Source: Lachnospiraceae bacterium (GTDB lineage Bacteria; Bacillota; Clostridia; Lachnospirales; Lachnospiraceae). Taken from it: DNA of 64,000 bases. A program made the translations under genes and the position numbers. The notes under the pieces are model-generated. The model saw only the letters and a program-made list of their open reading frames with translations. It was not told the DNA's origin and made no database searches. This document shows positions 4,266 through 4,882 of this stretch, piece after piece (position 1 is the first letter of the stretch; each line of letters starts with the position of its first letter). The DNA is taken from assembly GCA_015056885.1 (NCBI GenBank), contig SVFL01000001.1, positions 62,001-126,000 on the forward strand. Direction: 5' to 3'.

Positions 4266-4477
4266 CCAATTCTTTTGTATGTGTGCTTGGGGTTTGTGTA
4301 GAGTCGATTGAGGAGCTTTGTATCCTACCACGGAACGCTTTCGCTCCGTGAAAAACGCAGCGGCACATAAGATTGCAAAGTACGCAATCTAAGTGTCGGC
4401 GTTTTTCAAGGTCCTTTGGTAGGATACAAAGCCCCTAATCGACAGTACATACTCGCAGACACATACAAAAGAATTGG
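4266..4477. repeat. Nested long palindrome, element 1
   Basis: A 212-bp imperfect palindrome starts 10 bp after the leuA stop. The outer arms are a perfect 19-bp inverted repeat (4266-4284 with 4459-4477, beginning CCAATTCTTTTGTATG). A second arm pair at 4303-4330 and 4417-4443 (GTCGATTG...ATCCTACCA) matches with one substitution and one indel. Further in, GAAAAACGC (4350-4358) pairs with GCGTTTTTC (4399-4407), and AGATTGC (4370-4376) pairs with GCAATCT (4384-4390). A side hairpin CACGGA/TCCGTG lies at 4329-4350. No reading frame explains it. It is related to element 2 (4639-4882, opposite orientation) and to the shorter 15085-15166. Confidence 0.9.
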
Positions 4478-4494
4478 GTCCAAGTTTATCAAAT

Positions 4495-4556
4495 AAAGAA
4501 GACCATTGTATGGCGGTGGGAATTGTTTTTCCATCTGCCTTACAATGGTCTTTTTG
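4495..4556. terminator. Terminator between leuA and the convergent DUF3048 gene
   Basis: GACCATTGTA (4501-4510) pairs with TACAATGGTC (4541-4550), with additional weaker pairing inside, followed by TTTTT on the plus strand and preceded by an A-rich run, so it could work in both directions. It sits between the two palindromic elements, about 245 bp after leuA. Confidence 0.75.
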
Positions 4557-4638
4557 CACTTATAAGTAATTATGTTGAACTTAGGTTTGTCAGGAAAGTT
4601 GAGTGATTTTGGAGCTTTTCTTTTACTTGGCTTGTGGA

Positions 4639-4882
4639 ATATCCCAATTTATATATTTGTGTTTAAGGTATTTTGGCTATCGATTGGGCGTTTTATGTCC
4701 TACCACGAGACCTTGAAAAACGCCGGTGCTTGGCGAGGTCAACGAGATTGCGTAGCAAACTCGTTTCGAGCCTAGCATCCGTTGCGCTTTTTCACGGAGC
4801 GGAAGCGTTCCGTGGTAGGATATAATATGCCGCAATCGATAATTAAAAAATCTACATAACACAAATATATAAATTGGGATAT
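4639..4882. repeat. Nested long palindrome, element 2
   Basis: A 244-bp imperfect palindrome ends 2 bp before the stop codon of the minus-strand DUF3048 gene. The outer arms are a perfect 25-bp inverted repeat (4639-4663 with 4858-4882; contains CCCAATTTATATATTTGTG). The second arm pair at 4678-4707 and 4811-4841 contains TATCGATTG and TCCTACCACG. The core again has GAAAAACGC-type and CACGGAGCGGAAGCGTTCCGTG-like side hairpins; its right core is nearly the reverse complement of the left core of element 1, so the two copies are in opposite orientation. The sequence between 4557 and 4638 shows nothing recognisable. Confidence 0.9.

Follow-up and report, generated by a model that had tools for sequence, protein, structure and literature searches.

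A dispersed family of MITE-like hairpins with a conserved structured core in Lachnospiraceae

Two nested hairpins beside leuA

The window analyzed in this report, that is, the whole stretch of 64,000 nt from contig SVFL01000001.1 of a Lachnospiraceae bacterium (source genome labeled G000, a 3.2-Mb assembly), contains two long palindromes next to a gene named leuA from its Pfam domains. Element 1 (4266-4477, 212 bp), which starts 10 bases past the end of leuA, was delineated as a whole nested hairpin by inverted-repeat analysis, folding and genome search, and its sense strand, the one with the GNRA side, is the minus strand. Its outer arms (4266-4284 and 4459-4477) are perfectly complementary over 19 bp and enclose a conserved core at 4326-4416 on the minus strand (95.2 bits with covariance model R1), in which a side hairpin with a GAAA loop, recognized from the sequence and from the tally of loops across the family described below, is read on the minus strand at 4336-4345. 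Element 2 (4639-4882, 244 bp), delineated by the same three approaches, has its sense on the plus strand and stops 2 bases short of the end of the next ORF, which is on the minus strand. Its outer arms (4639-4663 and 4858-4882) are perfect complements over 25 bp, and its core (4706-4817, plus strand, 77.3 bits with the covariance model) belongs to a subtype whose apical hairpin is longer, and displays a GGAA loop in the side hairpin at 4798-4807 (plus strand), identified in the same way. Both elements thus have in common a core of ~90-110 nt; the main differences concern the arms and how long the apical hairpin is. They are mutually inverted, with their sense 5' sides pointing toward each other, around a terminator-like hairpin at 4496-4555 (plus strand) found in the inverted-repeat listing and the sequence. 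This arrangement—two nested palindromes whose outer arms match perfectly over 19 and 25 bp, conserved sequence blocks common to both, and opposite orientations around a terminator—had been described in a first-pass annotation of the window, and it proved exact in each of these respects.

A chance origin of both palindromes was rejected, since none of 20 first-order Markov surrogates contained a perfect inverted repeat of at least 14 bp, and the two longest perfect inverted repeats (gap of 300 bp or less) in the window are the arms of these elements. Each element folds as a single nested hairpin, with z scores against dinucleotide shuffles of -11.9 for element 1 and -13.3 for element 2, and none of 200 shuffles folded as well. 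The comparison of leuA 3' regions that the first-pass annotation had proposed shows that the position is occupied in G000 only among the genomes compared: leuA-like matches were found in 86 of the 138 genomes of the source genus and, among the leuA matches listed, the core was present in none of 29 relatives in the stretch fetched. No clean empty site could be aligned at leuA.

A hairpin family of Lachnospiraceae

The search of the genome and its relatives that had likewise been proposed uncovered a dispersed family. With element 1 as a query, BLAST returned 27 matches in the G000 assembly. They mark 23 distinct places, at nearly all of which the sequence folds as a long hairpin; L020, which is truncated, and L007, which pairs poorly, are the exceptions. 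A covariance model built from 36 copies, with seeds chosen via a GNRA-containing pattern, detected the core in 103 of 138 genomes of the source genus, where up to 31 candidates were scored per genome and copy numbers are therefore lower bounds. The same model found it in 159 of 397 Lachnospiraceae genomes, representing 141 of 334 genera. When 295 genomes were sampled across the order, 30 were positive, each of them labeled Lachnospiraceae. In named genome records, a strict core pattern matched at least 115 stretches, most of them under the titles Lachnospiraceae, Butyrivibrio, Blautia or Candidatus Fimimorpha. One metagenome-assembled genome titled Muribaculaceae carries many copies (L286, L288, L298 and other JAMPHJ loci), a title that we presume to be a naming error. 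In one further locus (L402, G277:C59, ~420-1000), three hairpin copies lie in tandem with a spacing of 164 bp.

The window has no match at gathering score in Rfam 15, and lax thresholds yield only sub-cut-off matches, two of which place an animal microRNA model on the core. One copy, L149, has a sub-cut-off match to the Rfam drum RNA at 472-582 (33.2 of 43 bits), outside the hairpin core. No description of hairpin repeats of Lachnospiraceae was found in the literature searched, which covers few subscription papers. Carriage by phages or plasmids was discarded because there was no match in viral contigs (three exact patterns), phages (element 1) or plasmids (element 2). An owner gene was discarded as well because the top family among the neighboring ORFs listed (101 of 203), ABC_tran, accounts for only 5 of 101, and no transposase or reverse transcriptase was seen beside copies among the families listed (25 of 146). 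Crude ORF calls around 121 copies placed 38 in sense and 31 in antisense between codirectional genes, which eliminates a riboswitch-like 5' leader of fixed orientation, and another 33 between divergent and 11 between convergent genes, with 8 contexts incomplete.

Copies were fetched from the top of a score-ranked list, which favors core pairing. We fetched 123, of which 115 were counted as distinct, and L006 and L020 were dropped from one comparison. The core comparison covered 100 of the 123 loci and gave 127 matches, of which 13 under 30 bits were left out and 114 kept; among those left out, the matches in L174 and L179 could be genuine second copies. The core is ~90 nt long, or 113 in the subtype with the longer apical hairpin, and consists of a stem enclosing a long apical arm and a small side hairpin with a GNRA-type loop. 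Its pairing is highly consistent, as 97.8% of paired core cells can pair, vs 82.2% after shuffling and 33-53% in slid structures, and 19 of the 25 predicted pairs display compensatory changes. Of 114 rows, 112 have a GNRA loop in the side hairpin (GAGA in 56, GAAA in 39, GGAA in 9, GGGA in 6 and GCAA in 2), a tally that is partly circular because the model seeds were picked by a GNRA pattern, while the G000 copies came via BLAST. Among 106 distinct rows, 16 have C-A at pair 24:104. G-U pairs are tenfold rarer in the core (18 of 2606 cells, 0.7%) than in 15 tRNAs of the fetched loci (23 of 329 pairs, 7.0%). The asymmetries of the hairpin, i.e., the side hairpin and the bulges, are conserved and not smoothed away.

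The arms behave differently from the core: they differ between copies and nevertheless match each other within a copy. In G000, for 18 of the 21 copies tested (of 23; the exceptions are L004, L007 and L015), the 5' arm pairs best with the 3' arm of the same copy, and none of 2000 random re-pairings reached the observed mean arm fit. When this test was extended to 118 copies from many genomes, including those 21, the own arm was best in 85 and tied in 7. In G095, G126, G017, G094 and G158, inner-arm identity between copies is 0.51-0.60 (shuffled background 0.48 ± 0.09) against a self-complementarity of 0.82-0.89, for cores that are 0.76-0.91 identical. In G032, G016 and G094, where mean core identity is 0.91, comparing the outer arms of different copies gives background values (0.50-0.54 vs 0.51), their self-complementarity is 0.62-0.75, and the inner arms of G032 and G016 are still related (0.78 and 0.76). 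The outer arms of G158, G017, G114, G082 and G117 have no measurable self-complementarity at the distances tested (0.52-0.56 vs 0.51). The hairpin is therefore conserved and its sequence free, most clearly near the core. Plain recent duplication was rejected for the family because arms differ between copies; identical recent copies do exist in G084. The covariation noted by the first-pass annotation is thus borne out, and neither an absence of covariation nor identical duplicated arms holds family-wide.

Mobility, candidate transposases and head-to-head twins

Direct evidence of mobility comes from one subfamily, TAGG. In G084, G116 and G120, the ends of its hairpins are TAGGTAATTGCGAAAC and the inverse, within two or three changes, and this end is also frequent in G044 and G098, whereas the reversed control hit each of these five genomes once at most. 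The copies are 206-210 bp long, which, together with their terminal inverted repeats, puts them within the size range of under 500 bp of miniature inverted-repeat transposable elements (MITEs). We scanned the 118 copies for a terminal repeat together with at least nine matching duplicated bases, and found such repeats with a target duplication of 10-12 bp in 12 copies, vs 0 of 353 controls in which flanks from different copies were swapped. In G084, the same element is present in three copies with three different duplications of 10-11 bp. Furthermore, when the joined flanks of eight copies of this kind were searched against the genus genomes, those of L110 and L111 were found uninterrupted in G044 (94% identity), in alignments without the hairpin and with one copy of the target, and those of L103 were uninterrupted in G017 (76% identity, from the search alone). 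The inserted unit in this subfamily is the whole hairpin with its arms. TAGG ends are also found without the core, in 143-bp elements at four G116 loci (L231-L234) and in elements of 66-76 bp at three other places, including L238 in G084 and L240 in G120, which we consider to be further MITEs of the same transposase type.

Candidate transposases exist for these ends. In G005, a 1.8-kb element with TAGG ends surrounds a DUF772/DDE transposase gene that is split over two frames, with no obvious target duplication, and G116 encodes an intact 501-aa relative beside one TAGG end, the other end lying beyond the contig. For both proteins, the best NCBIfam model is IS1182 (NF033551), with at most 77.9 bits for a cut-off of 270, and we therefore call them IS1182-like only. 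Variants of the TAGG end were thus seen on both sides of a transposase gene in G005 and on one side in G116. No DUF772 match was found in the assemblies of G120 and G044, both with TAGG ends and the former with duplications, and the sole match in G084 is a 121-aa piece with a stop. Our prediction is that resident transposases move the hairpins in trans. In G000, the end is GTCCCAATTCGCTTATTTGTG and variants thereof (10 hits with three mismatches or fewer, vs 0 for the reversed control). No copy in that genome, the window's pair included, passed the duplication scan, and no transposase with G000 ends was found there, its one DUF772 gene having other ends. By analogy with the TAGG subfamily, we infer that the window's pair was likely inserted at leuA.

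The head-to-head arrangement in the window is a recurrent one. Among the 114 core matches, 15 locus pairs lie within 1200 bp, of which 13 are head to head (12 distinct, since the window's pair is counted twice), two tandem and none tail to tail. In G457, three places carry a twin that combines two different arm sets; the arms agree between the places, both orientations occur, and the spacer is clearly common to two. An outer inverted repeat, TGTGCAATTTGGGNCTGTCCCC, which is unrelated to TAGG, encloses the twin at all three places. In the set of loci concerned (L394-L396, L408), this repeat also recurs several times beside the copies. In two species of another genus (G374 and G589), a head-to-head twin around one gene (L390 and L391) is found at an orthologous place with few changes, indicating that copies can stay put for long. 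A twin can therefore move as one unit and last as one, and the core occurs inside different terminal sequences. In a palindrome, an end that a transposase recognizes in one arm would automatically recur, inverted, in the other. Palindromic ends would then let the same core ride different transposases, with which the differing terminal repeats between genomes fit. A tentative and somewhat doubtful extension of this idea is that the family is a vehicle-switching element, whose conserved core on self-complementary arms, in head-to-head twins as well, would persist throughout Lachnospiraceae via whichever transposase recognizes the base of the palindrome, the arms being free to change while pairing is kept.

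Maintenance of the arms and nature of the family

How the arms stay matched can be addressed by counting changes between related copies. Over whole hairpins, in comparisons of nearest copies, paired double changes represent 1 of 19 changed pairs (5%) when 95-100% of pairs are unchanged, 29 of 127 (23%) in the 85-95% bin and 213 of 519 (41%) in the 70-85% bin, with 0, 10 and 71 non-pairing doubles, respectively, left out of these counts. When all pairs of copies are considered, the fraction of doubles goes from 0 to 0.33 with divergence, then to 0.26 in the most distant bin. The rise of doubles with divergence implies that one side changes first, and their rarity between the closest copies speaks against one-step copying of one arm from the other as the main process. 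The first-pass annotation, which held that selection or a copying mechanism keeps the hairpin and not the sequence, was thus right that the hairpin is kept, as attested by own-arm fit, re-pairings and compensated core pairs, but hairpin-templated correction, if in one step, is not supported as the main process. In the core alone, doubles prevail between nearest copies (131 vs 46, for copies chosen by a model score that favors paired states), also within G000 (28 vs 10), and this excess may be due either to strong constraint or to the score-based choice of copies. The arms likely stay paired through stepwise compensation, with the constraint acting on a Watson-Crick hairpin; a slower two-step templated correction, as discussed in the available part of PMC8794818, is possible. 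One arm would mutate and the other would follow, either through selection on the folded nucleic acid or through slow copying between arms, two processes that these data do not separate.

Taken together, the palindromes in the window belong to a dispersed hairpin family found throughout Lachnospiraceae, members of which were inserted whole at new sites in relatives. In the most probable reading, the window's pair arose likewise, as MITEs, and its arms are kept by stepwise compensation. The family is mobile and MITE-like with an unusually conserved structured core, its mobility being observed in one subfamily and extrapolated to the window's pair.

Three other explanations were weighed. First, the core might define a structured RNA family that is transcribed and selected as an RNA, such as a regulator or a processing or stability signal, with transposition being secondary. 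Judged from sequence patterns, this is quite possible, if short of probable. Conservation of the core sequence across 141 genera and the nearly invariant GNRA loop, within the limits set by GNRA-picked seeds, fit with it, as does the strand asymmetry of the inner 25 bp, where sense-strand wobbles outnumber mirror-image mismatches by 35:18 after collapsing (p = 0.027), which weakly favors sense-strand RNA selection near the core. However, the same ratio is 23:24 in the outer arms and 11:11 in the core, where it becomes 11:2 only on omission of pair 24:104. Transitions are not enriched among double changes relative to single ones (0.59 vs 0.52; 0.52 vs 0.47), which, together with the rarity of G-U pairs, is contrary to what RNA selection through G-U intermediates predicts, and orientation bias to neighboring genes and an Rfam match are both lacking. 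Second, copying between arms at replication, templated by the hairpin, could keep the palindrome perfect without selection, through template switching of the kind treated in the portion of PMC8794818 available to us. This we regard as unlikely: while the scarcity of G-U pairs, the lack of transition enrichment and the prevalence of core doubles even between nearest copies are all compatible with it, single-sided changes come first over whole hairpins, the side hairpin and bulges have not been smoothed, and the core doubles were counted in copies chosen by a pairing-favoring score. Third, it is highly improbable that the core captures fresh inverted arms at each insertion, so that arms of different copies are never related, because, despite outer arms at background around well-conserved cores in G032, G016 and G094, TAGG copies move with arms unchanged, G457 twins have both arm sets in common, inner arms in G032 and G016 are still related and the arms of orthologous copies are nearly unchanged.

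Comparison with known systems shows both resemblances and differences. Prokaryotic MITEs, among them Correia/NEMIS, ERIC and RUP/BOX-type repeats, have been reviewed (PMC10969869), and the hairpins resemble those in the part of that review available in being under 500 bp and intergenic, with terminal inverted repeats, a strong stem-loop, target duplications where copies are young and, for the TAGG ends, a candidate insertion sequence that has them too. They depart from the MITEs in that part of the review (PMC10969869) by their conserved core under terminal sequences that differ family-wide, their full-length pairing with covarying arms, and their head-to-head twins. The transposase beside TAGG ends has the DUF772 and DDE domains of the IS1182 family, from which the system differs in that the hairpin itself has no transposase gene and the transposases score far below the IS1182 cut-off of NCBIfam. 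REP/REPIN sequences are short GTAG-tagged palindromes with a RAYT (Y1) transposase. Like REP/REPIN moved by RAYT, as presented in the available parts of PMC3116915 and PMC2817692, the hairpins are dispersed intergenic palindromes, often in inverted pairs, but unlike REP, given as 20-40 bp in what is available of PMC3733652, they are at least 200 bp long and insert with target duplications. Finally, the long stems stay paired via compensatory change, as in the template-switching RNA hairpins of PMC8794818, but that source, in its available part, concerns RNA genes, whereas here we are dealing with a mobile DNA family in which doubles accumulate stepwise.

These findings add a large repeat family of gut and rumen Lachnospiraceae that is missing from Rfam and from the literature searched. 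Since the arms of this one hairpin have changed independently in many copies, each a natural replicate, the contributions of RNA selection, DNA selection and copying to arm matching become directly countable. The findings also point to a structured core that persists longer than the terminal repeats by which it is moved. Last, the family places strong hairpins beside many ordinary genes, and it may affect their mRNAs.
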